Positions 29,330-53,121 of a DNA stretch of 64,000 nt are shown here, piece after piece. The position numbers and the translations under genes are program-made. Each line of letters begins with the position of its first letter. Position 1 is the stretch's first letter. The notes beneath the pieces were generated by a model. That model was not told the origin of the DNA. It made no database searches and saw nothing but the letters and a program-made list of their open reading frames with translations. Source of the stretch: Rhodospirillaceae bacterium (lineage in GTDB: Bacteria > Pseudomonadota > Alphaproteobacteria > Azospirillales > Azospirillaceae); the NCBI GenBank assembly GCA_029267445.1, contig JAJUIU010000006.1, forward strand, positions 1-64,000, in the 5' to 3' direction.

Positions 29330-29404
29330 GCGGGCGTAGCTCAGGGGTAGAGCACAACCTTGCCAAGGTTGGGGTCGAGGGTTCGAATCCCTTCGCCCGC
29401 TCCA
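29330..29404 (+). tRNA. tRNA-Gly (GCC)
   Basis: Complete cloverleaf: acceptor GCGGGCG/CGCCCGC, D-loop AGCTCAGGGGTAGAGC, anticodon arm ACCTTGCCAAGGT with anticodon GCC, T-arm GGGTTCGAATCCC, discriminator T and encoded CCA. Its 3' part is the insertion site of an island: a 50-bp copy (29360-29409) recurs at 45639. Confidence 0.97.
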
Positions 29405-29409
29405 GTCTC
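29360..29409. repeat. attL: left 50-bp direct repeat of the tRNA-Gly island
   Basis: TTGCCAAGGTTGGGGTCGAG through CCAGTCTC is identical over 50 bases to 45639-45688. It runs from the anticodon loop through the T-arm and CCA into the downstream sequence, the usual crossover region for tyrosine recombinases that use tRNA genes. The tRNA remains intact after insertion. Confidence 0.95.
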
Positions 29410-29458: not shown

Positions 29459-29460
29459 GC

Positions 29461-31277: not shown

Positions 31278-31298
31278 CGCCATTACCCTTGCCGCCAT

Positions 31299-31855: not shown

Positions 31856-31991
31856 AAGTTTCGTGTCTGGTCGCCGCCGGCTACCAACACGACCCAGCCT
31901 GCCATACGGAGACCAGGATCTGCGGTATTGCGACTGCTTTCAAACAGGGGGGCTGACCGGATCACTCCGGCCAGCCTCGCCTGTGCCGCTC

Positions 31992-32078: not shown

Positions 32079-32108
32079 TGCCACCTCCTCTTGAAGGGTT
32101 GACTTGCT

Positions 32109-32204: not shown

Positions 32205-32461
32205 CGACCTCGCGTCGGTCAGGGACGTGGCGTTAAACGGCTGTAACCTCCTCGTTAAGTGCGTTAGATACTTGACCGAAGCTTCCTACAGCAAATAGCC
32301 AGTCTGCTGCGCTCCGATGGACATCGGGACGGGCGGAACACCCTTTCGCAACGTCCATAGCTCAAGTAGGACTGATACCTCGGACTGACAAGACCGCTCT
32401 AGACATTTTTTTCATGACCGAGTACCGCTAGAGCAAAACCACGGCCCGAGGGGAGCTTCCG

Positions 32462-33040
32462 ATGCCGATGGAACGGACGGTCAGCGTGGCCGATGTGGCC
32501 AAGGTCTTCCTGGGAGTGAACCTAAGCAGGCTGTCCAAGGACCCGGCGGCGGCCGATATCCCATTGATCAACATCAAGGATATGGCCGACGGCGGGATCG
32601 CCCCCCGCGAAAGCCTCCAGCAGGTCAAGCCAGCCGACCAGGATCACTATCGGCTGCAGGATGGCGACGTCCTGGTTTCCGTACGGGGCACGCTACTGAA
32701 GACGGCGAGAGTGACCGCGGACCATGAAGGGGCCTATGCCTCGGTCAACATCGCTATCGTCCGGCCGACAGGCTTTATCCGACCAGAGACCCTCTTTGCG
32801 CTGTTTCGGTCAAATCGGGTCCAGAGCGAGTTGATGAGCAAGTCCGTCGCGTCGGTCGTCTCGGGACTGCCTGTGAAATCGATCGCCGACGTCCGGTTCC
32901 GGCCACCGGCGCGGGAGGCGCTGCTGGTCGAATTGATCCGCAACGCGGATGAGCAGTACCGTGCTGGCCTGGACCTAATCGAAGAGCGCCGCGCAATCGC
33001 GATGGACATCATCGACCGCGCCCTGGACCCCATGTCATGA
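32462..33040 (+). CDS. Half-length HsdS-like specificity protein
   Basis: A 192-residue protein equivalent to one target-recognition domain plus spacer helix of a type I S subunit: IPLINIKDMADGGI, YRLQDGDVLVSVRGTLLKTA (about 60-80), ASVNIAIVRP and SVASVVSGLPVKSIADVRF, then a terminal helix. Full HsdS has two such units (~400 residues). Half-S proteins can act as dimers. Its stop overlaps the following hsdM-like gene by 4 bp. Confidence 0.75.
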   Translation: MPMERTVSVADVAKVFLGVNLSRLSKDPAAADIPLINIKDMADGGIAPRESLQQVKPADQDHYRLQDGDVLVSVRGTLLKTARVTADHEGAYASVNIAIVRPTGFIRPETLFALFRSNRVQSELMSKSVASVVSGLPVKSIADVRFRPPAREALLVELIRNADEQYRAGLDLIEERRAIAMDIIDRALDPMS

Positions 33041-34413
33041 CCGATCAAGCGCTGGCGCGTAAGCTGGACGATGCCTTCGCCGCCCTCACCAGGATCGGGC
33101 AGGACCTTGGCCGTCAGACGCGGGGACACGGCGCCGTCGCGCTGATGGTTCTGATGGCGGCCAAAGCCGTCAGCGACCGCGACGACCCGGCGAAATGGTA
33201 TGAGATTCAACGATCCCTGCGGGCCCCAGGCGGCCAGCACCGTTCCCATTTCCAAGGCCTGTTTCTCGATATCCTCTATCGTGTCGTTCCGGTCCAGGCC
33301 GCGACGGAGCTCGTGACGGTCCTCCAGGCTGCGGACAATAGGGCGCTCACCGCATGGGTCGATCACCTCGCCGGGCTCTACATCGGGCCGGAGGTCGAGG
33401 CGCAGCGCCTGTTCGCCCGGTGGCTGGACACAAAAATGGACCTGCTGGGCAACGAGATGGCCGAACTGGGCCAATTCTTCACGCCTGCCGACGTGGTTCG
33501 GATGATGGTCGATCTCGCCCCGCTGCGGGCCGACGCCAAGGTCCTCGATCCGGCTTGCGGCAGTGGATCGTTCCTGGCGTCGGCCATCTCCCGTCTGCAG
33601 GAAAACGATGGCGACCGGCATGCGCATCTGACCGGCGTTGAACTGAATTCCGAGGTCGCGGCGCTTGCCGCGTTGAGGCTGAGCCTGCTCGGCGGGGACA
33701 CTTCGGACATCGTGTCCGGCGCACGACAGCCCGGCTACGAGCGGAAGTTCGACCTCATCCTCTCCGCTCCACCGTTCGGGCGGAGCATGGCCCGGGCCGA
33801 ACTCGATGCGCTTGAGCTCCAGGGCATGCTTAACAGCCGGCCATCGCTCAACGCGGAAGCGGCCTTCGTGAGCTACGCGGCGGAACGGCTGGCGCCCGGC
33901 GGGCGCGCCGCGATGCTCATCCCACCGGGATTCCTGTATCGGTCGGAGGATGAGGCGGTCCGTCGGCACCTGGTCTCCAGGCATCAGGTCGCGGCGGTGA
34001 TCATGCTGCCGAAGGGTGTGCTGTCCCCGTCGACCAAGCTGGCCCCGGCCGTCATCATGCTGCGAAATCCAGAGGGAAGAGATCCCGGATTCGTCACCTT
34101 CGTGGATGCGATGCTGCTCGGCCGCAAGGAACGCAAGCGTGTGGCGCTGGATGCGGCGGAGGCCGAAGCGATCACCCAGGCGGTCCGGACCGGGCACGCG
34201 GCACTGGATACGTTGCGTGTGGCCCAGGTCGATGAAGACCGGATTCGCGCCGAACACTACGACCTGCGCCCCGAGACCTATCTGGAGACACCGACCGTGG
34301 CCAGGCAGCCCCTTGAGGAACGCCTTTCGCGGCTGAGGAAGCTGGACCAACGCTATGCCGAACTGGCCCGAACCACCGATGCGCTGATCGAGCAGCTGTC
34401 CAAGACGCGCTGA
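33037..34413 (+). CDS. HsdM-like protein with altered catalytic motif
   Basis: A 458-residue N6-adenine methyltransferase-fold protein of the type I M group. The AdoMet motif is normal ([17 protein letters not shown], about 170-186), but the catalytic motif IV, normally NPPF/Y, is SAPPFG (about 243-248): Asn is replaced by Ala, which should abolish methyl transfer. It is coupled to a half-size S gene and lies just before a complete hsdMSR set. It may be a non-catalytic, DNA-binding or regulatory pair, or decaying. The C-terminal coiled coil needed for S contact appears intact. Confidence 0.75.
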   Translation: MTDQALARKLDDAFAALTRIGQDLGRQTRGHGAVALMVLMAAKAVSDRDDPAKWYEIQRSLRAPGGQHRSHFQGLFLDILYRVVPVQAATELVTVLQAADNRALTAWVDHLAGLYIGPEVEAQRLFARWLDTKMDLLGNEMAELGQFFTPADVVRMMVDLAPLRADAKVLDPACGSGSFLASAISRLQENDGDRHAHLTGVELNSEVAALAALRLSLLGGDTSDIVSGARQPGYERKFDLILSAPPFGRSMARAELDALELQGMLNSRPSLNAEAAFVSYAAERLAPGGRAAMLIPPGFLYRSEDEAVRRHLVSRHQVAAVIMLPKGVLSPSTKLAPAVIMLRNPEGRDPGFVTFVDAMLLGRKERKRVALDAAEAEAITQAVRTGHAALDTLRVAQVDEDRIRAEHYDLRPETYLETPTVARQPLEERLSRLRKLDQRYAELARTTDALIEQLSKTR

Positions 34414-34427
34414 CCGCCCCGGTTGCG

Positions 34428-34445
34428 CGTGCAATTAATTGCACG
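34428..34445. promoter_or_regulatory. Perfect 18-bp palindrome before hsdM
   Basis: CGTGCAATTAATTGCACG is a perfect palindrome in the 70-bp gap between the degenerate hsdM-like gene and the complete hsdM. It is 39 bp upstream of the GTG start and looks like an operator for an HTH regulator. None is encoded beside it in island A. Confidence 0.55.
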
Positions 34446-34483
34446 TCATAGTCGCCCCGCCCGCATCCAGGAGTCCCCCGCCC

Positions 34484-36031
34484 GTGCCCGCCGACCTGCG
34501 TGAGATCGATCAGACCCTGTGGAAGGCGGCGGACAAGCTCCGCGCCGATGCGGGGCTGAAGCCGTCGGACTACGCCTATCCGGTGCTGGGGCTGCTGTTC
34601 CTGCGCTATGCGGAGTCCCGCTTCACCGAGATGGCGAAGGCGCTGAAGCCGGCCCCCGGGTCGCGCCGTACCATCGGGCCGGCGGATTTCATCAGCCGGG
34701 GCGTCATCTACCTGCCGGAGGACGCGCGCTATTCCCGGCTGATCGCCCTGCCGGAGGGGGAAAACCTGGGAAAGCACCTGAACGACGCCATGGCGGCGAT
34801 CGAGCGGGACAACAGCTATCTGGCCGACGTGCTGCCCAAGACCTACCAGGGCCTGCCGAAGGAGACGCTGCGCGAGCTGCTGAAGCTGCTGCACCCGCTG
34901 GACATCGCCGGCGACGCGTTCGGGCAGGTTTACGAGTACTTCATGGGCGCCTTCGCCATGGAGACGATGCAGAAGGGGGGCGAGTTCTACACCCCCGCCA
35001 GCATCGTCAAGCTGATCGTGGAGATCATCGAGCCCTACCACGGCCGCATCCTGGACCCCGCCTGCGGGTCCGGTGGCATGTTCGTGCATTCCGCCGATTT
35101 CGTGAAGGCGCATGAGAAGTCGCCGCAGAAGGAGCTGTCCATATACGGGGTGGAGCTTTACCGCGACACCCTGCGCCTCGCCCGCATGAACCTGGCCGTG
35201 CATGGGCTGACGGGGGAGCTGGCGGAGGCGAACAGCATGTACGCCGACCCGCACAAGGCCACCGGCCGGTTCGACTTCGTCATGGCCAATCCGCCCTTCA
35301 ACGTCTCCGGCATCGACCGGGAGCGGCTGGTGGGCGTCAAGGCCCGCTTCCCCTTCGGCGTGCCGACGACGGACAACGCCAATTACCTGTGGATCCAGCT
35401 CTTCCACTCCGCCCTCAACGATACCGGCCGGGCCGGCTTCGTCATGGCCAACAGCGCGTCCGACGCCCGTGGCAAGGAGGCGGAGATCCGTAAGGCGCTG
35501 GTGGAAAGCGGCGCGGTGGACGTGATGGTCGCCGTCGGCACCAACTTCTTCTACACGGTCACCCTGCCCGTGACGCTGTGGTTCTTCGACAAGGGCAAGG
35601 TGGGCGGGCCGCGCGAGGATCAGGTCCTGTTCATCGACGCCCGCCACACCTACCGGCAGATCGACCGGGCGCACCGGGATTTCGAGGGCTGGCAGATCGA
35701 GTTCCTGGCCAACATCGCCCGGCTGTGGCGCGGTGAGGCGGCGGAGGCCCTGCGCGGCAGTGCGGCCGCCCTGCGGGAGCATTTCTCCGACGGCCGGTAC
35801 CGGGACGTGCCCGGCCTGTGCAAGGTGGCGAGCCGGGCGGAGATCGAGGCCCAGGGCTGGAGCCTGAACCCCGGCCGCTATGTCGGCGTCGCCCCCGGTG
35901 CCAAGGACGATGTGGATTTCAAGGAGCGGCTGGAGGCGTTGCAGGAGGAGCTGGAGGTCCTGAACGCCGAGGCGGCGGGGTTGCAGGCGAAGATCGCGGC
36001 GAACGTGGCTGATCTGTTGGGGGCGGAGTGA
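34484..36031 (+). CDS. hsdM: Type I restriction system methyltransferase HsdM
   Basis: A 515-residue type I M subunit: N-terminal helical domain ([20 protein letters not shown]), AdoMet motif [12 protein letters not shown] (about 190-201) and catalytic NPPF in [11 protein letters not shown] (about 266-276), with a C-terminal coiled coil. It methylates adenine with HsdS and is needed for restriction with HsdR. The GTG at 34484 follows CAGGAG; an earlier TTG frame start falls inside the palindrome and is rejected. It overlaps hsdS by 4 bp. Confidence 0.92.
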
Positions 36032-37215
36032 TGTCGCAGTGGCCACTCAGAACCTTGTCATCACTTACCGTAGAGCACCGGCCGATTACATACGGCGTGG
36101 TCCAGCCTGGCCCCGAGCCTGTGGTGAATGGCATCAAGTTCATTAGAGGTGGTGATGTTTTTGGCGGCCGCATAATTGAGGAGCAGTTGCGGACGATATC
36201 GCCCTCAGTCTCAGAAAAGTACGCAAGAACGATTCTCGAAGGCGGTGAGCTAATCGTTTCTCTGGTGGGCTATCCAGGCGAAGTCGCTGTTGTGCCTTAC
36301 AGACTTCGGGGAGCCAACTTGGCTCGGCAAGTGGGACTTGTTGCTCTTGGGGAGGAATGCGCTCCTCACTACGCGAAGTACGCGCTGATGTCGCCGCAGG
36401 GACGCGCCGAACTGTTTTCGCAGTCTGGGGGAACGGCACAACAGGTGATCAACCTTTACAATCTAAAGCTGGTTCGAATTCCATTGCCCCCAGTTGCGGT
36501 TCAGCAGCGCATCGCCGACATCCTCTCCGCCTACGACGACCTGATCGAGAACAATACGCGGCGGATCGCGATCCTGGAGGAGATGGCGCGGCGGCTGTTC
36601 GACGCAGAGGCAGCGCTTTGCTATCTGGTCGCAGGCCAGGAGGCCCTTCGGGACGCATTGCCGGATGGATGGGGGCTTCACGATCTCGGTGATGTGTTGA
36701 CCCTTCAGCGTGGCTTCGATCTGCCTGTGTCGGACAGAACCCCTGGCGACGTTCCGGTCTTCGCAGCGACAGGACATCATGGCACCCACAATGAAGCCAA
36801 GGTCTCCGCGCCCGGCATCGTGACCGGCAGGTCCGGGACGATTGGGACCGTGAACTTCGTTGACCAGGATTTCTGGCCGCTGAACACAACGCTTTGGGTC
36901 AAGGACTTCAAGAGGGTCGGGCCGAGGTTTGCGTATTGCCTGCTTTCATGCCTAGATTTGAAAGGGCAGGCGTCCGGTGCCGCCGTCCCAACGCTGAACC
37001 GAAATGATGTGCATCGGCTGAAGGTGGCGCTCCCGCCCGCCGACACAGTGCAAGCTGTTGAGGAGAGATTGGAGCCGATTTTCGCTCTCATTCAATCGCT
37101 CCAACGAGCGAGCGAAAACCTCCGCGCCGCCCGCGACCTTCTCCTGCCCAAGTTGATCTCCGGGGAGATCGACGTGTCGCGGGCTGCGCTGCCGCAGGAC
37201 CTCGCCGCCGAATGA
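36028..37215 (+). CDS. hsdS: Type I restriction specificity subunit HsdS
   Basis: A 395-residue S subunit with two target-recognition domains (about 1-150 and 215-345), each followed by a conserved helix ([25 protein letters not shown] and [20 protein letters not shown]). The DNA of the recognition domains is visibly less GC-rich than the conserved helices and neighbours, the usual sign of domain exchange. It lies between hsdM and hsdR with 4-bp overlaps on both sides. Confidence 0.92.
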
Positions 37216-40200
37216 CGCCGCCGCCCCGCGACCGCGATTTCGTCCAACCCGACCGGCTGTATGCCGGGCTGGGCGAGGGCGATCTGGTGGAGGATGCGGC
37301 GGTGGAGCTGTTCGCGTCGCTCGGCTGGCAGACGGCGGACCTGTCCGGGGAGACCTTCGGGCCGGAGGGCACGGAGGGACGGACCGGCCGGCGGGACATG
37401 GTGCTGCCCCGCCGCCTGCGCGCCGCCCTTGCCCGGCTGAACCCCGGCCTGCCGGCCGAGGCACTGGATCTCGCGGAGGCGGAGCTGACCCGCGATCGCG
37501 GGGCGATGGAGCCGGTGGCCGCCAACCGCGAGGTCTGGCGCCTGCTGCGCGATGGCGTGCCCGTCCGCACCCGCGGGGCCGATGGGGAGATGGTGGATGA
37601 GGTGGTGCGCCCGATCGACTGGCGCGACCCGGCCGCCAACGACTTCCTGCTGGCCCGGCAGGTCTGGTTCGCCAGCGATCTGTGGCAGCGCCGGGCCGAC
37701 ATCGTCGGCTTCGTCAACGGCATCCCCCTGCTGTTCGGGGAGCTGAAGGGCCTGGGCCGGCCGCTGCGCGCCGCCCATGACGAGAACCTCCGCGACTACA
37801 AGGACACGATTCCCCGGCTGTTCGACTTCAACGGCATCACCCTGCTGTCCAACGGCATCGACGCCGTGATCGGGGCCAGCCACGCCGCATTCGACCAGTT
37901 CAAGCCCTGGAAGCGCATCGAGCGGGAGGACGAGGCGCCCCGCCCCGGCCTGGAGACGGCCATCCGCGCCGCCTGCACGCCCGCCCGCCTGCTGGACCTG
38001 GTGGAGAACTTCACCGCCTTCGAGGAGACGCGGGACGGGCTGGTCAAGAAGATCGCCCAGAACCATCAGGTTCTGGGCGTCAACAACGCCATCGCCAAGC
38101 TGATCGGGCTGCGCGGGACGACAGGGCCGGACGCCGGCAAGCTGGGCGTGTTCTGGCACACCCAGGGCAGCGGCAAGAGCCTGTCCATGGTCTTCTTCAC
38201 GGAGAAGGTCCACCGCACCATTCGCGGCAACTGGACCTTCGTCATCCTGACCGACCGGACGGAGCTGGACGACCAGATATCGTCCACCTATGCGGCCACC
38301 GGCGCCGTGACCAAGGACCTGGACGACGCGCGGGCCCGGGACCGGGAGCACCTGAAGCGGCTGCTGCGCGGCGATGAGCGCTACGTCTTCACCCTGATCC
38401 AGAAATTCTCCACAGCGTCCAAGGGGGAGCGATACGAGCGGCTGTCCGACCGGTCGGACATCATCGTCATCACCGACGAGGCGCACCGCAGCCAGTACGA
38501 CCAGCTGGCGCTCAACCTGCGCCGCGCCCTGCCCAACGCCGCCTTCCTGGGCTTCACCGGCACGCCGCTGATGGCGGGGGACGAGCCGACCCGTGAGGTG
38601 TTCGGCGACTATGTCTCCATCTACGATTTCGGCCAGTCGGTGGAGGACGAGGCGACGGTCCCGCTCTATTACGAGAAGCGGGTGCCGGAGGTGCACATCG
38701 TCAATGACAGCTTCAAGGACGAGGCCCAGGCGATCATCGACGGCTCCGGCCTGGACGAGGAGGAGGAGCGCGCGCTCGCCCGCAAGCTGGGCAACCTCTA
38801 CCAGCTGATCACCAACCCCGACCGCCTGGACAAGATCGCCGCCGATCTGGTGCGCCATTTCTCCGGGCGCGGCTATCGCGGCAAGGCCATGGTCGTCAGC
38901 ATCGACAAGGCCACCGCCGTGCAGATGCACGATCTGGTGCGGCGGCGCTGGGCCGCCCTGATCGCGGCGGCGGAGGCGGAACTGGCCGCCGCCCCGGACG
39001 ACCTGAAGCCCGCCATCGCCGACAATCTGGCCTGGCTGAAGGCGACCGACATGGCCGTGATCGTCAGCCAGGGCCAGAACGAGGTGGCGGATCTGGCCGA
39101 GCGCGGGCTGGACATCCGCCCCCATCGGGCGCGGATGCAGGCGGAGGACCTGGACGAGGATTTCAAGAACCCGGCGCACCCGCTTCGGCTGGTCTTTGTC
39201 TGTGCCATGTGGATCACCGGCTTCGACGTGCCGACCTGCTCCACCATCTACATCGACAAGCCGATGCGGAACCACACGCTGATGCAGACGATCGCGCGGG
39301 CCAACCGCCGCGCGCCCGGCAAGGAGGCGGGGGTGATCGTCGACTATGTCGGCGTGTTCGCGAACCTGCAGAAGGCGCTCGCCATCTATGCCCGCCCGCG
39401 CCCCGGTGGCGGGGAGGATCGGCCCATCGAGGACAAGCGGGCGCTGGTCCAGGTGCTGCGGGACAAGCTGGCCTCCGTCCGGTTGCTCTGCTCCGCCCAC
39501 GGGGCCGACCTGGACGCCATCTGGACGACGAACAAGCTGGACCGGATGGTGCGGGTGAAGGAAGCGGCCGACGCGCTGATCCATCCGGAGAACCGGCGGC
39601 ACGCCTTCCTGGCGCAGGCGAGCCTCATCCTGCGCCTCTACAAGGCCATCCTGCCGGACGAGGCGGCCTCCGACTTCACCCGCGACGTGGCCGCCATCAG
39701 CATCGTCGCCGACGCCATCCGGGCCAGCACCCGCCCCGACCCGACGGCGCTGGCCCGGGTGCGGGCGGAGATGGCGGCCCTGATCCAGCGGTCCATCGCC
39801 GGCATCGACATCGACATCCCGCTGCGCGGGCCCGGTGAGCTGGGAGAGCTGTTCGACCTCTCCGCCATCGACTTCGAAAAGCTGGCCGGCGGCCTGAAGG
39901 GCGGCAACCGGCGCAGCAAGGCGGAAGCCCTGATCGCCGCCGCGAAGGCGAAGCTGGAGGAGATGGTCTCCGCCAACCCGTCGCGCCGCGACCTGGCCGA
40001 GAAGCTCGAACAGCTGATCGCCGATTACAACGCCAACACCGTCTCGCTGGAGCGGCTGTTCGACCGGCTGCTGGCCTTCGTGAAGGAGCTGGACGAGGAG
40101 ACCCGCCGCGCCACCCGCGAACAGCTGAGCGAGGAGGAGCTGGCCGTTTTCGACCTGCTGGTCAAACCAGGGCCGACGCTGTCACGCGCCGAGACGGTGC

Positions 40201-40415
40201 AGGTGAAGACCGTCGCCCGCGACCTGCTGGCCCGGCTGAAGCGGGAGACCGCCATCATCGACTGGTGGCGCAAGCCCGCCCAGCGTGCCGCGGTCGTGCT
40301 CGCCATCGAAGAGGAGCTGGACAAGCTCCCCGACGCCTTCGCCCAGGACATCTGGCAACTGAAGGTCCAGGACACCTTCCGTTTCGTCTACGAACGCCGG
40401 CCGACGGTGCATTGA
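37212..40415 (+). CDS. hsdR: Type I restriction endonuclease subunit HsdR
   Basis: A 1067-residue R subunit. The N-terminal nuclease domain has RADIVGFVNGIPLLFGELKG (the D...ExK site; ELK at about 176-178). The motor has Walker A TQGSGKS (about 316-322), DEAH in ITDEAHRSQYDQ (about 422), motif III FLGFTGTPLM and later MWITGFDVPTCSTIYIDKPM. The C-terminal helical domain binds the MTase. Translocates DNA and cuts at a distance from unmodified sites. This length and domain order match the EcoR124-like class. Confidence 0.95.
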   Translation: MTPPPRDRDFVQPDRLYAGLGEGDLVEDAAVELFASLGWQTADLSGETFGPEGTEGRTGRRDMVLPRRLRAALARLNPGLPAEALDLAEAELTRDRGAMEPVAANREVWRLLRDGVPVRTRGADGEMVDEVVRPIDWRDPAANDFLLARQVWFASDLWQRRADIVGFVNGIPLLFGELKGLGRPLRAAHDENLRDYKDTIPRLFDFNGITLLSNGIDAVIGASHAAFDQFKPWKRIEREDEAPRPGLETAIRAACTPARLLDLVENFTAFEETRDGLVKKIAQNHQVLGVNNAIAKLIGLRGTTGPDAGKLGVFWHTQGSGKSLSMVFFTEKVHRTIRGNWTFVILTDRTELDDQISSTYAATGAVTKDLDDARARDREHLKRLLRGDERYVFTLIQKFSTASKGERYERLSDRSDIIVITDEAHRSQYDQLALNLRRALPNAAFLGFTGTPLMAGDEPTREVFGDYVSIYDFGQSVEDEATVPLYYEKRVPEVHIVNDSFKDEAQAIIDGSGLDEEEERALARKLGNLYQLITNPDRLDKIAADLVRHFSGRGYRGKAMVVSIDKATAVQMHDLVRRRWAALIAAAEAELAAAPDDLKPAIADNLAWLKATDMAVIVSQGQNEVADLAERGLDIRPHRARMQAEDLDEDFKNPAHPLRLVFVCAMWITGFDVPTCSTIYIDKPMRNHTLMQTIARANRRAPGKEAGVIVDYVGVFANLQKALAIYARPRPGGGEDRPIEDKRALVQVLRDKLASVRLLCSAHGADLDAIWTTNKLDRMVRVKEAADALIHPENRRHAFLAQASLILRLYKAILPDEAASDFTRDVAAISIVADAIRASTRPDPTALARVRAEMAALIQRSIAGIDIDIPLRGPGELGELFDLSAIDFEKLAGGLKGGNRRSKAEALIAAAKAKLEEMVSANPSRRDLAEKLEQLIADYNANTVSLERLFDRLLAFVKELDEETRRATREQLSEEELAVFDLLVKPGPTLSRAETVQVKTVARDLLARLKRETAIIDWWRKPAQRAAVVLAIEEELDKLPDAFAQDIWQLKVQDTFRFVYERRPTVH

Positions 40416-40556
40416 GCAGGCATCGGCGCACAGAGAGCGGGCCCCAGCATCAATCCAGAAGCGACGGGATCCGCGCGCGCATCCAAAATAGTTGCAAAGG
40501 AAAACCGTACGCACTACGCGCTACCACCTTGGACACTCCTCTTTCGGTGGGCGCGC

Positions 40557-43500
40557 ATGTTCTTCCTGTCAGAATCGCAGGAATCGCTCGAAATCGGGCA
40601 GTTCGGCCATGTGGCCGTCCGTGCCGTAACGACCAGCACACCTTGGGAAATCTCGGCCGACGCGCTGGTGGTACCAACGGGGCCGCATATCCAGGATTTG
40701 AGTGGTGGGCTCGCTCGGGCCTTGCAGATGGTCCTCGGCCCCGATGGATGGGGCCGTCTCCGTAACCGGATCGGAGCGTCAGCCGCCGTGGAGGTGGAGC
40801 CATACGCCGCCGACCGCCCGCTTTTGGTTGCAACTGGTGACTTAGCGGTGAGCGCCTCTCTCCCACCGGTACTGATTCTCGCGACCGCGTTCCAAGACCC
40901 AAGTGAACCCACCCTCGCCCATACCGCCACACTCCACGTGCTCCGGGCGTTCCGGGACGAAGCTCCACCACCGTCCTTGAATCGCGTGGTTCTTCCGCTT
41001 TTGGGCGCGGGCGACGGTGGGGCAAATGCCGTAAAGACGGCCACCGCCATGTTGCGGGCTGTCTGGAAGTTTGCCTGCGAGATGCCCGGAGACCCAATGG
41101 AGCTGGTGCTGGTCTCCCACAAGCCTGAGGACTGGCAGGCCGTCCGGATGGCGGTGAGCGAGATCAAGCGTGGCAAGCAGACGCCATCGCTTCTTGCGAC
41201 CGCAGATCGGCAAGTGCGCCGCGTCGTCACCATTGCCGAACGGGTCGCCGCTCGGCGGAACGGCGTGATGGAGGTTGGATGGCTGCTTCACGCGATGTCG
41301 GATGCGGCCTTCCTGGTACCTCGGCGGCTGACCCAGCGTGGAGCCGCGATTGTCACGAAGGAGATCGACGTTGCCAATCTGGTCCAGAGTATCATCAAGC
41401 ACCATCGTGGATATTCAACGGGACTGTTCACGGATTTAAGAGAAACGGTATCGGGTGATATAAAATTTGGCTCTATAAAGCTATCATCCACTTATGTGAG
41501 ATTGATTAGGGATTCTGCAGCCGCATCAGTTAAAGAGAAGAAACCGGAGTTCGGAATCAATCATCTTCTATCGTCAATATCCAAGATATTCCCAAACGAA
41601 AATTTTCCTGACATAAACCCAGAAAATTTTACGAGAGCTATTGAGAAAATATTTCCGGATTTGGGTGGGCTGGCGAAGCAATTTCTTGAATCGATATCGT
41701 TGTCAGAGTCTCAGTCTTCCAAGTCGCCTCCGACTCGTCGCATCACCCGCTTCCAAGCTGACACCACGACGGGCCCTGATCTTCTGGGCGTGGATCGGGA
41801 TGCGAAAGCATTCGCGGAACTGGTGACCCTGCGAGCCACGCAGCCGCCCTTGTCCATTGCGCTGTTCGGAGACTGGGGGAGCGGCAAGAGCTTCTTCATG
41901 GAGCGGATGGGTGCCCTGGCGCAGCAGGTGGCGCAGGCGGCGCGGGAGAGTGGAGACCGACAGTTCTGCCACCATATCGTGCCGATCCGCTTCAATGCCT
42001 GGCACTATGTGGAACAGAACCTGTGGGCCAGCCTGGTCCACCACATCTTCCAGGAACTGGATCGGTGGATCCGGGATCAGGAAACAGACCGGCGGCCGGA
42101 TGATCTGTTCGACCAGCTGGCGACCGCCCGACGCCTGCGCCTGGAGGCATTGGAGGGGTTGGTCGCCGCGGGTCTTGCCACCCGGCAAGCGGAGACGGAG
42201 GTTGCAAAGGCTCGCAAAGTCTATGGCGAGGCGGTGCAGAAAAAGTCCCTGCATGGGACGGAGACCATGCTGGCAGCTGTCCGCCGCGCCTTCCAGCCGG
42301 AAGCATTAGCCAAGGTGAAGGACAATCCGGCGAAAGCGATCTCGGAACTCGCAAACGGCACCGGGATCGAGGGCTTGGAGCAGCATAGCCAGCAGCTGCT
42401 GGAGCTGTGGCAGACCGGAGGTACACTGTCCACACGCGCATGGGTCCTTTGGCGGGGGCTGCGCCAAACGGTTCCGGGCTGGGAGGTCCTGGTCCTGGCG
42501 GTTGGGGTGATTGCGTTCCCGTTCGGCTTGGCGGCAATGCATCAATGGACGGCGCATGCTCTGGAGTCCACTTGGCTGCAACAGGCGCGCCTGGAGCTTT
42601 CCAGCTTGCTGGTGACCCTGACTGGAGCCGCCGCCGTGGTCCGAGCTTGGCTGAATAGGGCCAAGCCCGTCCTGGACAAACTGGAGAAAGTACGGACAGC
42701 ACTCGATGCCATCGCCACCGAGGCCGTGGCGGGGGAAGCCGACCAGATCGCAACGGCTGAGGCCGGGGCCGAACAGGCTCGGCTTGCGCTCCAGGACAGT
42801 GAGCGGCGCTTCCATCAGGCTCAGGACGCCCTGTCTGCGGCGGAAAGGGACTATGTCGCCCAGGGGGCTGCTGGCCGGCTGACCCGCTTCATCCGCGAGC
42901 GGGCAGGCGGCGGCGACTACTCCCGACATCTGACGCTGGTCGCCACGATCCGCAAAGATTTTGAGTACCTGTCAGAGTTGATGGCCGGTATGGCCAAAGG
43001 TGACAACAGAGCCAAACAACATGCGCTTGCGGCCAACCAGCGCTATCGACAGCGGTTAGGGGATCTCCTGGACCGCCACAAAGACTCCTTGCCTAAGGAA
43101 GTTGAGCAAAAGATCCGCCAAGCCATGCCGGATGAAACCGGGAACACCACGGACCTCCCCAGTTTCGACCGCATCGTCTTGTTCATCGACGATCTGGATC
43201 GGTGCCCGCCGGACAAGGTGGTGGAAGTGTTGCAGGCGGTCCACCTGCTTCTGGCGTTCCCGCTGTTCGTTGTCGTGGTCGCCGTCGATTCCCGATGGGT
43301 CGAACGGTCACTGGAACGGCACTATTCCGGTATGCTCCGCCAGGACAAGGGGAGTGCCGCGGCGGCCGGACCGCGCGATTATCTGGAGAAAATCTTCCAG
43401 ATCCCCTTCTGGGTCGAGCCCATGGACGGGGTTGCCTGCGGACGGTTTCTCGACGGCGTGCTCGGGTTGATCCCGGACGGCGACAGCGCAGATGCCCCTG

Positions 43501-44213
43501 GTCCCGTGGGCACCGGCGCCAAAGCCGCCGGCGCGATTGACGCAACGTCCGGGGGAGGAAGGGACGAGGGGCCCGCGACCACCCTCTCCAGCACCGACAA
43601 TGAAAACGAGAACATGTACGACGATGGAGAACCGGACCCGGAGGCCAATCAAGGCCCGGCAACGGCTCCAAAGCAGCCCGAGTCCGAAGTTGCCTTGCCC
43701 CCGATACCCATCCTCGCGCCATTGGGTCGACGAGACCGGGAAGCCATTAGGCTGGTGGCGCCATTGCTGTCTGGGTCGCCGAGGCGGGCGAAGCGGTTCC
43801 TCAACATCTATCAGATCATCAGGACCCAACTGGCTTCCGGTGGTGCCGATGAGAGCGGGGCGCAAGACCTAGTCACCCCCATTGTCCTGTCAGGCGTGCT
43901 CGCGCTCAACACGGCATATCCAGAACAAGGGGAGAAGCTGTATGCGTCACTCGCGTCGAACGTAGAGGATGAGCCGTACGACGTGGTTGCAGGCAAGGCC
44001 GGGAACTCCGCAGTGCGAGCACTGGGGATAGTGCGGCAGGCGGCCTCTGATGCCGGCATCCTGGATGAAGCGCTGTTGCGGCAAAGGATGTTGCAGGTGG
44101 CCACCTTAGTGCGGCGATTCACCTTTGACGGGCCGGGTAATGGTGACTTGTTTCCACCGTCTCCGGATGTTCCCGCTGTCGCCGTGGCGACCCCGGTTGA
44201 GCCGTCTCCATAA
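40557..44213 (+). CDS. Large KAP P-loop NTPase with macro-like and Clp-N-like regions
   Basis: A 1218-residue protein. Residues 1-185 resemble a macro domain (DALVVPTG; RVVLPLLGAGDGG; MELVLVSHKPEDW). Residues about 210-350 resemble Clp N-terminal repeats (VRLIRDSAAASVKEKKPEFGINHLLSSI split over two helices). A KAP-family NTPase follows: Walker A GDWGSGKS (438-445), two membrane segments at about 643-663 and 679-698, as is usual for KAP proteins, a coiled coil, and Walker B IVLFIDDLDRCPPDKV (about 873-888). An acidic low-complexity insert lies near 1020-1045. KAP NTPases (e.g. PifA) act in phage exclusion. It stands alone after hsdR, and its 3' end overlaps the convergent integrase by 95 bp. 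Confidence 0.75.
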   Translation: MFFLSESQESLEIGQFGHVAVRAVTTSTPWEISADALVVPTGPHIQDLSGGLARALQMVLGPDGWGRLRNRIGASAAVEVEPYAADRPLLVATGDLAVSASLPPVLILATAFQDPSEPTLAHTATLHVLRAFRDEAPPPSLNRVVLPLLGAGDGGANAVKTATAMLRAVWKFACEMPGDPMELVLVSHKPEDWQAVRMAVSEIKRGKQTPSLLATADRQVRRVVTIAERVAARRNGVMEVGWLLHAMSDAAFLVPRRLTQRGAAIVTKEIDVANLVQSIIKHHRGYSTGLFTDLRETVSGDIKFGSIKLSSTYVRLIRDSAAASVKEKKPEFGINHLLSSISKIFPNENFPDINPENFTRAIEKIFPDLGGLAKQFLESISLSESQSSKSPPTRRITRFQADTTTGPDLLGVDRDAKAFAELVTLRATQPPLSIALFGDWGSGKSFFMERMGALAQQVAQAARESGDRQFCHHIVPIRFNAWHYVEQNLWASLVHHIFQELDRWIRDQETDRRPDDLFDQLATARRLRLEALEGLVAAGLATRQAETEVAKARKVYGEAVQKKSLHGTETMLAAVRRAFQPEALAKVKDNPAKAISELANGTGIEGLEQHSQQLLELWQTGGTLSTRAWVLWRGLRQTVPGWEVLVLAVGVIAFPFGLAAMHQWTAHALESTWLQQARLELSSLLVTLTGAAAVVRAWLNRAKPVLDKLEKVRTALDAIATEAVAGEADQIATAEAGAEQARLALQDSERRFHQAQDALSAAERDYVAQGAAGRLTRFIRERAGGGDYSRHLTLVATIRKDFEYLSELMAGMAKGDNRAKQHALAANQRYRQRLGDLLDRHKDSLPKEVEQKIRQAMPDETGNTTDLPSFDRIVLFIDDLDRCPPDKVVEVLQAVHLLLAFPLFVVVVAVDSRWVERSLERHYSGMLRQDKGSAAAAGPRDYLEKIFQIPFWVEPMDGVACGRFLDGVLGLIPDGDSADAPGPVGTGAKAAGAIDATSGGGRDEGPATTLSSTDNENENMYDDGEPDPEANQGPATAPKQPESEVALPPIPILAPLGRRDREAIRLVAPLLSGSPRRAKRFLNIYQIIRTQLASGGADESGAQDLVTPIVLSGVLALNTAYPEQGEKLYASLASNVEDEPYDVVAGKAGNSAVRALGIVRQAASDAGILDEALLRQRMLQVATLVRRFTFDGPGNGDLFPPSPDVPAVAVATPVEPSP

Positions 44214-45441
44214 GCAACAGTTCCGCCCGCTCCGACACCCTGTCCGCCGCAACCCGGATCGCCTCGTCCAGGTGGATGTAGCGTTGCGTGACCCCGCGGG
44301 AGGCATGCCCAAGCAGGGCGGCGACGGTCAGTTCCGTGAAGCCCATCTCGGCGGCGATGCTGGCGAAGGTGTGGCGGAGGACATGGGGTGTCACACCGGT
44401 AAGCTTGGCGCGGGCGCAGACGCGGGCGAGCACGCGGGGGACACCGATGAAGTGGCCGTCGCCCTGCTCGGCCGGGAAGACGTAGGGGCTGTCCTCCCGG
44501 CGGGGGGCGGTGCGGATCACGGCCAGGGCGGCCTGGCCGATTGGGCGCACCTGGGGGCCGCTCTTGGTGTCGGGAAAGCGGATATAGCCCTTCTCCGGGT
44601 TGACCCAGTCGAGCTGGAGCGCCATCGCCTCCATCCGCCGGAACCCGGTCAGCAGCAACAGTCGGATCGCGGCGAGGCCGGTCTTGTTCTCGTGATCCGT
44701 CTCCGCCTCCCGCATGGCCTTGCCAAGAGCGGCCAGCTCCTTCTCCGTCAGCGCCCGGTCGCGCTTGCGGTCGGGGGCGATCTTGCGGACGCCGCGGGCG
44801 GGGTTGGCGTCGATCCGCTTGCGGCGCCGGGCGTGTTCCAGGATGGTGTGCAGCATGCTGACGGTGCGGCTGGCGCTGCCGGCCCCGCCCGTGGCCACAC
44901 CGCCGCGCTTCGGCCCGCGGGGCCGGGCCGTCTTGCCAGCGGCGACATCGCCCTGGAAACGCTCGATGTCCTCCAGGGTCAGGCTGCGCACCGTGCGTCG
45001 GCCCAGCAGCGGCTTCACATGCGTTTCGATCCGACTGCGGTCCATGGCGAGGGTGCTGGCCTTGATCGGTCGCCCGCGCCGGCCGAGCAGGGTCCCGGCT
45101 TCCGCCTCGGCCAGGTATCAATCGCAGATTTCCGCCACGGTCGGCGCCTCGCGGGCGACGTGGCGCTCGGCGGAAGGATCCGCCCCCTTCGCGACCTCGG
45201 CCAGCCGCTCGCGGGCCAGCCGGCGCGCCTCGTCCGGCGTCAGGGTCCCGGCCTTGCCGATCACCATGCGGCGCAGGCGTCCCTCCGCGTTGCGGTACTG
45301 GATGATGAAGCTGCGCGACCCGCTCGGCTTGAGCCGGATGCCGAAGCCCTTGAGTTCGGAGTCCCAGGCGAACACATCGTCCGATTCCCCCGGCCGCAAG
45401 GCGTCGATCACGCGCTTCGTCAGTTTCGGCATGTAGATCAA
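44119..45441 (-). pseudogene. Tyrosine recombinase (island integrase) with an in-frame stop
   Basis: A 441-codon integrase frame interrupted once. Codons 1-107 (45441-45121) encode the arm-binding domain (KLTKRVIDALRPGESDDVFAW... then VAEICD); a TGA at 45118-45120 follows; the same frame continues YLAEAEAGTLLGRRGRPI into the core and catalytic domains. Catalytic residues are present: R in LLLTGFRRMEAMAL, H-x2-R in HVLRHTFASIA, a later GH in ALLGHASRG and Tyr in VTQRYIHLDEA. One change from CGA or TGG would restore it. Re-initiation at 45045 could give a 308-residue core-only protein. It lies next to attR. Confidence 0.88.
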
Positions 45442-45485
45442 CCCCTTGCCGCGATTCTGATTCCCCAGGCGGCCAGTCTACAGGT

Positions 45486-45506
45486 CGGGGAATCCCGGGG
45501 GAATCA
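45486..45506. promoter_or_regulatory. Right arm-type repeat upstream of the integrase
   Basis: CGGGGAATCCCGGGGGAATCA repeats the sequence at 29461-29481 with one difference. It lies between the integrase start and attR, so it could be both an arm-binding site and an integrase autoregulation site. The remaining intergenic sequence (45507-45638) is AT-rich near 45555-45590 and may hold the integrase promoter. Confidence 0.55.
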
Positions 45507-45638
45507 CGCGGAGGGGTAATGGGGCGTTGCAGCGCGTACCGGGGCGCAGCTTCTACCATTTAAAAAATCTTTCTTTATCAATTGCTTAATGCACAGTGCG
45601 TTGATCTCATTCGGTGATCGGTTCGGTTCCATGGGTCG

Positions 45639-45688
45639 TTGCCAAGGTTGGGGTCGAGGGTTCGAATCCCTTCGCCCGCTCCAGTCTC
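45639..45688. repeat. attR: right 50-bp direct repeat (tRNA-Gly 3' copy)
   Basis: Identical over 50 bp to 29360-29409. Only the anticodon-to-CCA part of tRNA-Gly is present, with no 5' half, so it is not a functional tRNA. It marks the right junction of island A. Confidence 0.95.
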
Positions 45689-45865: not shown

Positions 45866-47563
45866 TCAGCCCAGCCGCCACAGCCGGGCCAGGGCGCCGA
45901 CCAGTTCCGCCTGCCTTTCCATCAGCACCTCCCGCGTCCAGCTTTGTTTGTTGACGATCCAGGTGGTCAGGGCGAACGTCGTTGTCCCGTTCCGCTGAAA
46001 GTATTCCGTCTTCTTCCGGTCGAAGTCGAAATTGCTGGCCTGGCTGTTCTTCCGACGGGACAGAAGAGCCAGGTTGCCGAGCTTGTGGACCCACTCCGCC
46101 CTTTCCACGGGATCGGGGAACCAGTCGAGCCAGACGCTGTCCGGCGGGGGGGTCTGTGGCAGCACGTGCTCCACCGTCACCACATCCGGATCATGGCGGA
46201 CACCGCCGTCCGCGAGCACAGAGTCGAGGCGCAGCAGGACCGGCAAGCGGATGCGCGTCTCGGTATATAGCGGTCCATTCAGCCGGCCCAGGATTTCCGA
46301 CCGCTCGATCGGATCGAGCTGCATCGGCGAGCCGGGGTCGCGGTAATCGAGGCCGCCCTCCAGCGAGGTCAACAGTCTGCCATATCGCTGGATGCGCTCG
46401 GTCGCGTTGCGCCGGAGAATGAAGAGCCCGTAGGAGAGGCGCTCCAGCTCCACCAGGAACGGCAGCAGCGTCTCGGGGTGGCGGTTGAACCTCGCCATGT
46501 ACCAGATGGCTGGCGGCATCCAGTCGAAGTTGTCCAACCGGTTCAGATATCGCAGGTACGCGTTGATGCTCTCGGCAAGCGTGGTGCTGCGATAGTCTTC
46601 GCGGATGATCGTCTCGTAGGCGTCGGCGTAGGGAACGAGCATCCGGTCGATGAAGGCGGCCGGCGCGTTCTGCGGTTGGACGTACGCCTTGAACTCGACC
46701 GCGAGCGTCTTCTGCGCCTTCTGCTTGGCCACGATCATCCGGATATGGGCGAACAGGTCCTCGAAGGCGGAACGGCCGAGGCTCGCCTCGCAATCCTCCC
46801 AGATGTCCGTATAGGTCTTGCGCAGCTCCTCATTCTCCGGCAGCGCGCCGATGATCTCGGCCTTGAGGATATCCGTCGCCGACAGATCGAGGCCCCGGTC
46901 GTTCATCACGCTGAAGATGCGGTAGGCCGCCTCCTGGTCGGAGGCGCAGACGACCACCAGGAAGCACCGCTGGAGAAGAAACGCCGCCAGACGATCCCTG
47001 TACCCTTGCGGCAGTTCGGCGAGTTGCTCCTTCAGGAAAAGGGCATTGGCGCGCATGTTCGCCTGCGCCTCGGGAATCTCGTCCCCCGCAGCGTCCAAAC
47101 CCGCAAGACCGCCCATGGCCTGGATGTGGCGCCGGAAGAAATCCCGATCCCGCGTCCGGGGTGACAGGCGGAACCGCGCCTGCGCGCCGGTCAGCATGTC
47201 GGCTTCCTCGCAGACGAAGCTTTGGAGCTTGATCGCCAAGGGTGCCGGCGCCAGCTCCCGCAGGACCGACAGCATGATGGTCAGCGTCGTCAGCCGTTGC
47301 TGGCCGTCCACGACCTGGGCTTCAGGGCGGAGCGGGTCCTTGATCAGGACGACGCTGCCAAGGAAATAGGGCGACAGGTCCTGGATGGGGATCACCCCGT
47401 CGTCATCCTGCATGGCGGTCCGGATGTCGGCCAGCAGGTCGCCGACCTGTTCCAGACCCCAGGAATAGGGGCGCTGGTAGTCCGGGATGGAGAACGCATA
47501 GTCGTTGCTGAAGATCTTCATCAACGGACGCTCTTGCGCCTGGATCGTCTCGACCATCGTCAT
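45866..47563 (-). CDS. GmrSD-type DUF262/DUF1524 protein (type IV restriction)
   Basis: A 565-residue protein. The N-terminal DUF262 domain has the ParB-like nucleotide motif VVDGQQRLTTLTIM (about 84-97) preceded by YAFSIPDYQRPYSWG. The C-terminal DUF1524 domain has the His-Me nuclease sequence VTVEHVLPQTPP with a later KLGNLALLSRRKNSQASNFDF. Fused GmrS-GmrD proteins cut phage DNA with glucosylated or otherwise modified cytosine using NTP. BrxU-like proteins share this plan. It stands alone, leftward. ATGs at 47563 and 47557 are both possible starts. Confidence 0.88.
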   Translation of the reverse strand: MTMVETIQAQERPLMKIFSNDYAFSIPDYQRPYSWGLEQVGDLLADIRTAMQDDDGVIPIQDLSPYFLGSVVLIKDPLRPEAQVVDGQQRLTTLTIMLSVLRELAPAPLAIKLQSFVCEEADMLTGAQARFRLSPRTRDRDFFRRHIQAMGGLAGLDAAGDEIPEAQANMRANALFLKEQLAELPQGYRDRLAAFLLQRCFLVVVCASDQEAAYRIFSVMNDRGLDLSATDILKAEIIGALPENEELRKTYTDIWEDCEASLGRSAFEDLFAHIRMIVAKQKAQKTLAVEFKAYVQPQNAPAAFIDRMLVPYADAYETIIREDYRSTTLAESINAYLRYLNRLDNFDWMPPAIWYMARFNRHPETLLPFLVELERLSYGLFILRRNATERIQRYGRLLTSLEGGLDYRDPGSPMQLDPIERSEILGRLNGPLYTETRIRLPVLLRLDSVLADGGVRHDPDVVTVEHVLPQTPPPDSVWLDWFPDPVERAEWVHKLGNLALLSRRKNSQASNFDFDRKKTEYFQRNGTTTFALTTWIVNKQSWTREVLMERQAELVGALARLWRLG

Positions 47564-47713: not shown

Positions 47714-49252
47714 ATGATCACGGGTGAGATCAAGCGTCAGATCGACGACATCTGGAACGACTTCTGGACCGGCGGGATGTCCAATCCCCTGGCCGTGATG
47801 GAGCAGATCACCGTCCTGCTGTTCATCCGCCGCCTGGACGAACTCCACACGCTGGAGGAGGCGCGGGCCGCCACCCTGAAGAAGCCGATGGCGCGCCGCG
47901 TCTTCCCCGAGGGGGCCGACCAGGACGGCGTGCCGTACGAGCGGATGCGCTGGTCCCGCTTCAGGTCGCTGGAACCCCGGGCGATGTTCGACCTCGTCGA
48001 CCGGCACGTCTTCCCCTTCCTGCGGACCCTGGGCGGCGCCGGGTCCAGCTTCGCCACGCACATGAAGGACGCCCGCCTGGGCATCCCCACGCCGGCCCTG
48101 CTGGCGAAGGTGGTGGAGAAGCTGGACCGCGTGCCCATGGAGGAGCGGGACACCAAGGGCGACGTCTACGAGTACATGCTGGGCAAGATCGCCAGCGCCG
48201 GCCACAACGGGCAGTTCCGCACGCCCCGGCACATCATCGCGGCGATGGTGGAACTGATGGCGCCCACGCCGGACGACGTGATCTGCGACCCGGCGGCGGG
48301 CACCGCCGGCTTCCTGGTGGCGGCGGGGGAGTATCTGCGGCGGGAGCACAAGGCCCTGTTCCATGACCCGGCGAAGCTGCGCCACTTCCACACCCGCGCC
48401 TTCAACGGATTCGACTTCGATCCCACCATGCTGCGCATCGGGGCCATGAACATGGTCCTGCACGGGGTGGAGGGGGCGAACATCGCCTACCGCGACAGCC
48501 TGGCGGAGGAGCATGGGGAGGATGCGGGCGCCTATTCCCTGATCCTGGCCAACCCGCCCTTCGCCGGCTCGCTGGATTACGAGGCCTGCGCCAAGGACCT
48601 GCAGCGCGTCGTCAAGACGAAGAAGACGGAGCTGCTGTTCATCGCCCTGTTCCTGCGGCTGCTGCGCGTCGGTGGCCGGGCGGCGGTGATCGTGCCGGAC
48701 GGCGTGCTGTTCGGCTCCTCCAAGGCGCACAGGGACATCCGCCGCATCCTGGTGGAGGACCACAGGCTGGACGCGGTGATCAAGCTGCCGTCGGGCGTGT
48801 TCCGCCCCTATGCCGGGGTGTCCACCGCCATCCTCTGCTTCACCCGCACGGACAGCGGCGGCACCGACCATGTCTGGTTCTACGACGTGCAGGCCGACGG
48901 CTTCTCCCTGGACGACAAGCGCACGCCCCTCGTGGGGGAGGATAAGCTGGGCCCCGTGCCCGGCCGCACCCTGACGGCCGAGGAGTTCCAGCGGAACAAC
49001 CTGCCCGACCTGGTGACCCGCTGGCAGGACCGCGCCGGCGACGAACGCAAGCGCCCCCGCACGGCCCAGAGCTTCTGCGTGCCCAAGGTGGAAATCGCTG
49101 CGGCCGGCTACGACCTGTCCCTCAACCGCTACAAGGAAGTGGCGCACGCGACGGCGGACCATGCCAGCCCGGCGGAGATCCTGGCCGAGCTGAAACGCAT
49201 CGAGGCGGAGATCGCCGACGGCACCCGGCGGCTGGAGGAGATGCTGGGATGA
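47714..49252 (+). CDS. hsdM: Type I restriction methyltransferase HsdM (second system)
   Basis: A 512-residue type I M subunit distinct from the one at 34484. The AdoMet motif is VICDPAAGTAGFL (about 190-202) and the catalytic motif is intact (LANPPFAGS, about 278-286). The N-terminal helical domain has IDDIWNDFWTGGMSNPLAVMEQ. It overlaps its hsdS by 4 bp. Its cognate hsdR is 5.4 kb downstream, beyond several inserted genes. Confidence 0.92.
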   Translation: MITGEIKRQIDDIWNDFWTGGMSNPLAVMEQITVLLFIRRLDELHTLEEARAATLKKPMARRVFPEGADQDGVPYERMRWSRFRSLEPRAMFDLVDRHVFPFLRTLGGAGSSFATHMKDARLGIPTPALLAKVVEKLDRVPMEERDTKGDVYEYMLGKIASAGHNGQFRTPRHIIAAMVELMAPTPDDVICDPAAGTAGFLVAAGEYLRREHKALFHDPAKLRHFHTRAFNGFDFDPTMLRIGAMNMVLHGVEGANIAYRDSLAEEHGEDAGAYSLILANPPFAGSLDYEACAKDLQRVVKTKKTELLFIALFLRLLRVGGRAAVIVPDGVLFGSSKAHRDIRRILVEDHRLDAVIKLPSGVFRPYAGVSTAILCFTRTDSGGTDHVWFYDVQADGFSLDDKRTPLVGEDKLGPVPGRTLTAEEFQRNNLPDLVTRWQDRAGDERKRPRTAQSFCVPKVEIAAAGYDLSLNRYKEVAHATADHASPAEILAELKRIEAEIADGTRRLEEMLG

Positions 49253-50415
49253 AGGGGGTGCGGAGGGTAAAGCTAGGAGAGGTCGCGGAGCTGGTCCGGC
49301 AGGTCATGTCGCCGGGCGACATGCCACAAGGAACCCGGTATGTCGGCCTTGAACACATCCTGTCCACAGGCGAAATCCAAGCGAACGGTCCGGTTGAACC
49401 CGGGGAAATAGCAAGCAACAAGTTCGAATTCCATCCAGGGCAGATCCTGTTCGGCAAGTTACGCCCTTACCTGCGCAAGGTAGCGCGGCCCGATTTTCGG
49501 GGCGTATGCAGCACAGACATCATACCTATCCAGCCTAGCCGACAAGTCGATGCAGGCTTTCTGTTTCACATGCTGAGGACAGACGAGTTCATTGACCGCG
49601 CTACGGCCCTGGCGACGGGAGCGAATCTGCCCCGCATAAGCCCAAAGCTGCTTGTTGAGTTCGAGTTCCCCCTTCCAACACTCGAGGAGCAGCGGCGGAT
49701 TGCTGCCATCCTCGACCAGGCCGATACGCTCCGCCGCCACCGCCGCGCTGCGCTGGAGCGGTTGACTAATCTCATTGAAGCGACGCTTACAGACTTCCTC
49801 GCGTCCGATATCAGCTATAAATGGCCTCTCGTCTCTTTAGGGAACTGTGGAGATGTCCAAGGTGGCCTCCAGGTCTCGGCGAAACGAAAGGGAGACGGTC
49901 CACCAGTTCCTTATCTTCGCGTCGCGAACGTCTATCGGAATCGTCTTGACCTGGGTGAAATCAAGGTAATGCCAGCCACATTAGCGGAAGTTGCCCGTCT
50001 TCGGCTCGAGGCGGGCGACATCCTTATCGTCGAAGGTCACGGAAATGCGGCCGAGATCGGTAGAACTGCTCTCTGGGATGGTTCTATTCCCGACTGTATT
50101 CACCAGAACCATTTGATCCGGGTTCGGCCCAACCGCCAGAAGCTCGAACCGACCTTTGCATCGCTTTACCTAAACTCCAGTGCGGGGAGACTCCATTTGG
50201 TGGGCCGAGGAAGAACGACGTCGGGACTGAACACAATCAGTGTGCGCGATGTTCGGGAAACGCCAATCCCGCTCCCCCCCCTTTCCCTCCAACGCGCCTT
50301 CGCCGACCGCGTGCGCGCCATCGAGGTCCTGAAGGCCAGGCACCGCGCCCACCTGTCCCACCTCGACGCCCTCTTCGCGTCGTTGCAACATCGAGCCATC
50401 AATGGGGGTTTTTGA
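49249..50415 (+). CDS. hsdS: Type I specificity subunit HsdS (second system)
   Basis: A 388-residue S subunit with two recognition domains (about 1-140 and 190-335) and conserved helices EFPLPTLEEQRRIAAILDQADTLRRHRR and LPPLSLQRAFADRVRAIEVL. The recognition domains are less GC-rich than the helices. The last 117 bp of shared helix are repeated at 51598-51714 at the end of an hsdS fragment, showing recombination at this gene. Confidence 0.9.
   Translation: MKGVRRVKLGEVAELVRQVMSPGDMPQGTRYVGLEHILSTGEIQANGPVEPGEIASNKFEFHPGQILFGKLRPYLRKVARPDFRGVCSTDIIPIQPSRQVDAGFLFHMLRTDEFIDRATALATGANLPRISPKLLVEFEFPLPTLEEQRRIAAILDQADTLRRHRRAALERLTNLIEATLTDFLASDISYKWPLVSLGNCGDVQGGLQVSAKRKGDGPPVPYLRVANVYRNRLDLGEIKVMPATLAEVARLRLEAGDILIVEGHGNAAEIGRTALWDGSIPDCIHQNHLIRVRPNRQKLEPTFASLYLNSSAGRLHLVGRGRTTSGLNTISVRDVRETPIPLPPLSLQRAFADRVRAIEVLKARHRAHLSHLDALFASLQHRAINGGF
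50281..50397. repeat. hsdS tail repeat, copy 1
   Basis: CTTTCCCTCCAACGCGCCTT through ...CATCGAGCC is nearly the same as 51598-51714, same orientation. It encodes the terminal coiled-coil helix of HsdS. Recombination between the copies would delete the Abi-like gene between them. Confidence 0.85.
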
Positions 50416-50418
50416 CCG

Positions 50419-51348: not shown

Positions 51349-51377
51349 TAAGGAAGTGTACATGTGTTCTTGATGCC

Positions 51378-51731
51378 ATGTGCAGGACCACAATACCGCA
51401 GGGCGACGAGCCCTACGCCTTCGCCGGCTATCTCGTGCGACTGCACACCAACGGGAGGGCCGATCCCGAACGCATTTCGGCGTTCCTCAACAGCCGCTAC
51501 GGCAAAGCGGTGCTGCGGGGAATGTGCAAGAGCATCATCGGCATGGCCAACATCAACGCGAAGGAACTGCTGGGCATCCGCATTCCCCTGGCGCCCCTTT
51601 CCCTCCAACGCGCCTTCGCCGAGCGCGTGCGCGCCATCGAGGCCCTGAAGGCCCAGCACCGCGCCCACCTGTCCCACCTCGACGCCTTGTTCGCGTCGCT
51701 GCAGCACCGGGCGTTCCGGGGGGAGTTGTGA
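51378..51731 (+). pseudogene. Truncated hsdS, C-terminal part
   Basis: 117 codons equal to the second half of a recognition domain and the terminal helix of an S subunit: TIPQGDEPYAFAGYLVRLH, SIIGMANINAKELLGIRIP and LQRAFAERVRAIEALKAQHR. Upstream the homology fades about 5 codons before the ATG (VLDAMC...). The other recognition domain is absent. It is a left-over of an hsdS that exchanged domains, or a donor cassette for new specificity. Confidence 0.8.
51598..51714. repeat. hsdS tail repeat, copy 2
   Basis: Second copy of the HsdS terminal-helix sequence (see 50281-50397), with scattered substitutions. Confidence 0.85.
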
Positions 51732-51818
51732 GGTTCCCCGCAGTGGCGCCCCCTTGTCACGGCGCTCCACCTTTAGGATAGTCGGTGCGGGCATATCGCC
51801 GTTTCGGGGGAGGCGATC

Positions 51819-53113: not shown

Positions 53114-53121
53114 GTCCATCC

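Follow-up and report, generated by a model that had tools for sequence, protein, structure and literature searches.

Phage defence has been linked to several KAP NTPases, among them Tmn, PifA and QatA. The macro domain is a fold that binds ADP-ribose, and SAVED domains are the nucleotide sensors of CBASS. Tmn is a KAP NTPase with two transmembrane domains that blocks phages (PMC11846954). KAP NTPases are already known from conflict systems (PMC8195603, PMC10907252), in which KAP is recorded as taking the place of STAND (PMC8195603). A macro sensor also occurs in TM-macro ThsA of the Thoeris system, which binds ADPR/IAD and oligomerises through its macro domain, with clustering of the transmembrane domains proposed as a consequence (PMC11204291).

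Here we analyse a gene of a Rhodospirillaceae bacterium in which a macro domain precedes a membrane-inserted KAP NTPase. It lies in a 64,000-nucleotide stretch of DNA, the window, and a search of the 4.2-Mb genome turned up no other KAP gene. A preliminary description of this DNA had read it as one 1218-residue membrane protein with macro-like, Clp-N-like and KAP NTPase regions. The frame is genuine, with an ATG as its first in-frame start codon and none earlier; no sigma-70-type promoter was found in a search upstream of the gene. Its parts are as follows.

40557..44213, plus strand: macro-KAP gene, 1218 amino acids, open frame with ATG start, KAP_NTPase match at 3e-27
40572..41177, plus strand: macro domain, residues 6–207, proposed ligand sensor (profile, AF2, Foldseek, VIA)
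41178..41732, plus strand: helical region, residues 208–392 (AF2 helices), equivalent in position to the Clp-N-like repeats of relatives
41865..41891, plus strand: Walker A, FGDWGSGKS, residues 437–445, invariant or nearly so in 86 relatives
42477..42545, plus strand: predicted membrane helix 1, residues ~641–663 (19-residue hydropathy 2.2; AF2 helix)
42594..42653, plus strand: predicted membrane helix 2, residues ~680–699 (19-residue hydropathy 1.58; AF2 helix)
43173..43205, plus strand: Walker B, IVLFIDDLDRC, residues 873–883, invariant or nearly so in 86 relatives
43779..43811, plus strand: C-terminal motif PRRAKRFLNIY, residues 1075–1085, marked by conservation among 86 relatives

To gather relatives, GTDB contigs were searched using eight aligned members of the family, which recovered at least 382 encoded proteins; the 86 analysed here are the best 80 of these by core similarity plus six from plasmids. 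The KAP NTPase occupies approximately residues 395–1190 and is the only Pfam family over its cut-off in the protein (PF07693; 96 bits against a cut-off of 20). With both Walker motifs intact, the NTPase assignment of the preliminary description is upheld, and the QatA, PifA and PDC-S20 models of PADLOC and NCBIfam match this part only. The FNAWHY motif is likewise invariant or nearly so among the 86 relatives, as are, in the C-terminal motif that we infer to be a lid/sensor region, P1075, R1076 and N1083 (invariant) and R1080 and Y1085 (nearly so). Between Walker A and Walker B lies a helical insert of ~430 residues that holds the predicted membrane hairpin, for which hydropathy and the AF2 helices agree, bearing out the proposed membrane protein. 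The membrane segments are predicted to sit inside the NTPase domain, a feature of KAP NTPases. Both hydrophobic segments are found in 83 of the 86 relatives and at least one in all 86; the distance from Walker A to Walker B has a median of ~390 residues in this set and is 432 in the 1218-residue protein.

In the AF2 model of the core (mean pLDDT 71.5), a P-loop core is broken by long helices carrying the hairpin. By VIA, the closest structures are the rings of RdrA (Z 16.7, rmsd 5.8, 351 residues aligned), followed by ORC/Cdc6 and, further down, the plant NLR resistosome 6j5t (Z 11.0), in comparisons that call for caution given a model of partly low confidence with long helical inserts. Foldseek of the same model returned nothing at E <= 0.001, so VIA is the one source of the ring analogy.

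Pfam finds no macro match when run on the 1218-residue protein alone, and phmmer with residues 1–208 matches the macro protein TTHA0132 weakly (8.6e-4). A family profile reaches TTHA0132 at 3.8e-11, with the macro domains of PARP14 and macroH2A next. An AF2 model of the N-terminus, for which 15 sequences from the window and the loci of relatives were used, has pLDDT values mostly of 80–90 over residues 10–205; Foldseek places it with macrodomains (~1e-8, target TM ~0.8), and VIA aligns it with macroH2A1.1 (2fxk) at Z 21.2 and rmsd 2.6 over 183 residues. Pfam Macro independently matches the N-termini of five relatives, the best at 1.9e-4. The proposed macro-like region has thus come through both profile search and structure prediction, and the modelled macro fold of residues 6–207 is confirmed well beyond chance. 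Profile comparison with the genome's own canonical macro proteins covers only the second half of the domain (probability 85%). Because the loop that reads VNAAN in those canonical proteins reads VVPTG here, we take the domain to be a probable reader rather than a hydrolase. Its residues in this loop depart from those of classic binders. Within the macro group the diphosphate-binding loop is variable, the Xanthobacteraceae relative L024 being one example, and the ligand may therefore be something other than ADP-ribose.

The Clp-N-like repeats proposed for the following region are not established. Residues 208–392 are modelled as helices with pLDDT mostly of 30–63, which is low; Pfam on the protein alone gives no Clp-N match, Clp-N HMMs built from the family score an insignificant E of 0.11–0.12, and hhalign assigns a probability of 4–6%, with a macro-region control lower still. 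Indirect support for Clp-N comes from the family. L024, a MAG that is the closest full-length homologue among the best 80 of at least 382 relatives and the six plasmid ones, carries a macro domain plus a Clp-N match of ~1e-14 in the equivalent region, and the neighbours of the 1218-residue protein on the core tree carry Clp-N-like repeats. One of the Clp-N HMMs used also picks up L061, a protein with a pair of true Pfam Clp_N repeats (6.3e-31).

The gene is carried by a 16.3-kb island (window positions 29360–45688) at a tRNA-Gly gene, together with a type I restriction-modification system. The island and its surroundings comprise the following.

29330..29404, plus strand: tRNA-Gly(GCC), the island integration site (ARAGORN), beside the same left flank in relatives
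29360..29409, plus strand: left att repeat, 50 bp, made up of the 3' portion of tRNA-Gly and the 5 bp that follow it
32462..40415, plus strand: type I restriction-modification cluster inside the island (PADLOC type I M, S and R models)
44119..45045, minus strand: tyrosine integrase, catalytic part (Phage_integrase, 1.3e-18)
45639..45688, plus strand: right att repeat, 50 bp, an exact direct repeat of 29360–29409
45866–47563, minus strand: GmrSD-type restriction gene, just to the right of the island and outside it
47714–58095: second type I system, outside the island and next to the GmrSD gene

The integrase gene adjoins the right end of the island, and its frame is interrupted by a single in-frame stop, with the N-terminal part before it. 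Five related genomes retain the left flank with tRNA-Gly, and the window DNA to the right of tRNA-Gly has no match in the stretches of those five that were compared. The suggested defence island is borne out: one type I system shares the tRNA-Gly island with the macro-KAP gene, and a second one and a GmrSD gene stand close by. Relatives are sporadic, occurring in two of 82 genomes of the order, the organism's own included, and in 10 of 385 genomes of the class. No homologue was found in the phage records searched, and viral contigs gave weak KAP-level matches only.

The wider pattern, absent from the preliminary description, is that the N-terminal domain is one of many on a widespread core. 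The best 80 of at least 382 relatives and the six from plasmids span many phyla, and their N-termini were read by Pfam and iterated HMMs with labels whose counts overlap: macro in 25 of 86 (Alphaproteobacteria, Actinomycetota and Bacteroidota), EVE-like in 27, Clp-N-like in 29, peptidoglycan-binding in four, TIR and WD40 in three each and kinase in two. A myxococcotal relative (L060:7765-11517) has a SAVED domain (8e-19) in the place of the macro domain before the KAP core, and a Streptomyces relative (L092:7282-12033) has caspase and WD40 domains there. Other members combine trypsin with SLOG (L093) or with Clp_N (L054), an Mrr-like nuclease with macro (L081), and Clp_N with LRR (L061); among these N-termini the Pfam E-values are 2.8e-5 for caspase, 5.5e-7 for Trypsin_2 and 2.3e-7 for SLOG. 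Fusions to TIR, SAVED, SLOG, caspase and trypsin are a repertoire typical of bacterial immune proteins. On a maximum-likelihood tree of the core, obtained by a quick search and including two identical rows and some long branches, the macro state requires six changes and the full label set 20, and the 14-row set around the 1218-residue protein mixes macro, EVE plus Clp, and Clp forms. Macro stands on several branches apart from one another, which speaks for domain swapping. Computation thus shows a family that exchanges N-terminal domains on one common KAP core.

The genes that flank these relatives match 211 PADLOC models against three for control genes from four alphaproteobacterial genomes, counts that refer to models and not to genes, and many of the flanking genes look like ordinary metabolism. 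Relatives mostly lack a conserved operon partner, which makes it plausible that the macro-KAP gene acts as a single gene.

Two plasmid-borne relatives have suggestive surroundings. On a Rhizobium plasmid (L015:8708-14456), the KAP relative, a SIR2 gene and a nucleoside 2-deoxyribosyltransferase gene each overlap the next, and the three may form an operon. On a Sinorhizobium plasmid (L016:8621-18759), a TIR-KAP relative stands beside DarT, macro-domain and SIR2 genes.

How does this protein compare with the described systems? With Tmn it shares a KAP-family NTPase with two membrane segments, whereas the published passages on Tmn used for this comparison name no sensor of the macro kind, or any other, at its N-terminus (PMC11846954). 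QatA of qatABCD and PifA have the same KAP core, with their models matching around Walker B, but differ from the macro-KAP protein in its N-terminal domain and long insert. The score against the NCBIfam QatA equivalog is 100.2 bits with a cut-off of 600; we do not assign the protein to that system. TM-macro ThsA resembles it in joining a macro sensor to two membrane helices, although to our knowledge ThsA contains no KAP NTPase. Nor do we assign the locus to Thoeris, the genome having no ThsB/TIR gene by PF13676 and PF08937 (no match). RdrA, the ring ATPase of the RADAR phage-defence system, provides the closest solved structures to the core model, a likeness of fold only and a moderate one at rmsd 5.8. 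With STAND and NLR proteins the family shares a central NTPase with swappable immune-type domains, but the NTPase belongs to another family, the variable part is N-terminal and the membrane hairpin lies inside the NTPase domain. In the literature searched we found no KAP fused to macro, EVE, TIR or SAVED, and earlier mention is possible; a survey of EVE domains does not mention KAP (PMC7641849). The idea of an undescribed ligand-sensing, membrane-acting NTPase survives in its macro and KAP-membrane parts and its defence setting, and its Clp-N part is unproven for this protein.

We consider it somewhat probable that the macro-KAP protein serves bacterial immunity as an accessory receptor or effector, a KAP NTPase anchored in the membrane, which would work as a ligand-gated, membrane-damaging assembly. 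During infection, an ADP-ribose-type ligand or an ADP-ribosylated target would arise and be bound by the macro domain. Ligand binding could then release autoinhibition and allow the KAP domains to assemble with NTP, perhaps into a ring, and this assembly would cluster the hairpins, perturb the inner membrane and halt the infected cell. Since a search of the genome for TIR, ThsB and DarT genes (TIR and ThsB by PF13676 and PF08937) found none, the ligand would come from either a phage or a general host enzyme. More broadly, and more tentatively, the family could be an undescribed and widespread class of immune receptors that share one KAP ring NTPase inserted in the membrane and are analogous to STAND/NLR proteins, in which plug-in N-termini tune a shared membrane-acting output. 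As such a class, the plug-in modules (macro, EVE, SAVED, SLOG, TIR, caspase and trypsin) may respond to nucleotide signals, modified bases or proteins.

Defence need not involve killing through the membrane. The KAP core might instead be a scaffold at the membrane that blocks phage DNA entry or replication in the manner of PifA, while the macro domain would recognise a component of phage or host that carries ADP-ribose. Tmn and PifA are KAP proteins linked to phage exclusion, the PADLOC models of QatA and PifA match the core, and relatives bear protein-binding folds (WD40, LRR and Clp_N) besides nucleotide sensors at the N-terminus; the TIR, caspase-like and trypsin N-termini, however, resemble killing effectors and are better fitted by an activated assembly, and we regard such a scaffold as unlikely. 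Outside defence altogether, the protein could be an NTPase of general stress or signalling that the island carries as cargo, as the metabolic genes flanking some relatives would allow, and no homologue with a tested function was found. Against this stand the sporadic distribution, the carriage on an island and the fused domains of immune type, which together leave a non-defence role quite unlikely.

Macro domains such as that of DarG remove ADP-ribose marks, and the domain could thus counter ADP-ribosylating toxins or phage ADP-ribosyltransferases while the KAP part serves as a membrane tether. The pairing of DarT and macro genes beside the TIR-KAP gene of the Sinorhizobium plasmid would suit this activity. 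We nevertheless judge it very unlikely here, because the replacement of VNAAN by VVPTG and the absence of DarT from the genome speak against it, and because macro can be replaced on the same core by TIR, EVE, SAVED and others, which points to a sensing or signalling role.

With one membrane NTPase joined to different known sensors, the family makes it testable how KAP NTPases sense infection. It would also carry the combination of macro domain and membrane known from Thoeris over to an NTPase machine of much greater size. More generally, the finding in relatives of one shared motor behind other sensors of immune type suggests, from sequence comparison, that the macro-KAP family may be a swappable antiviral alarm protein.
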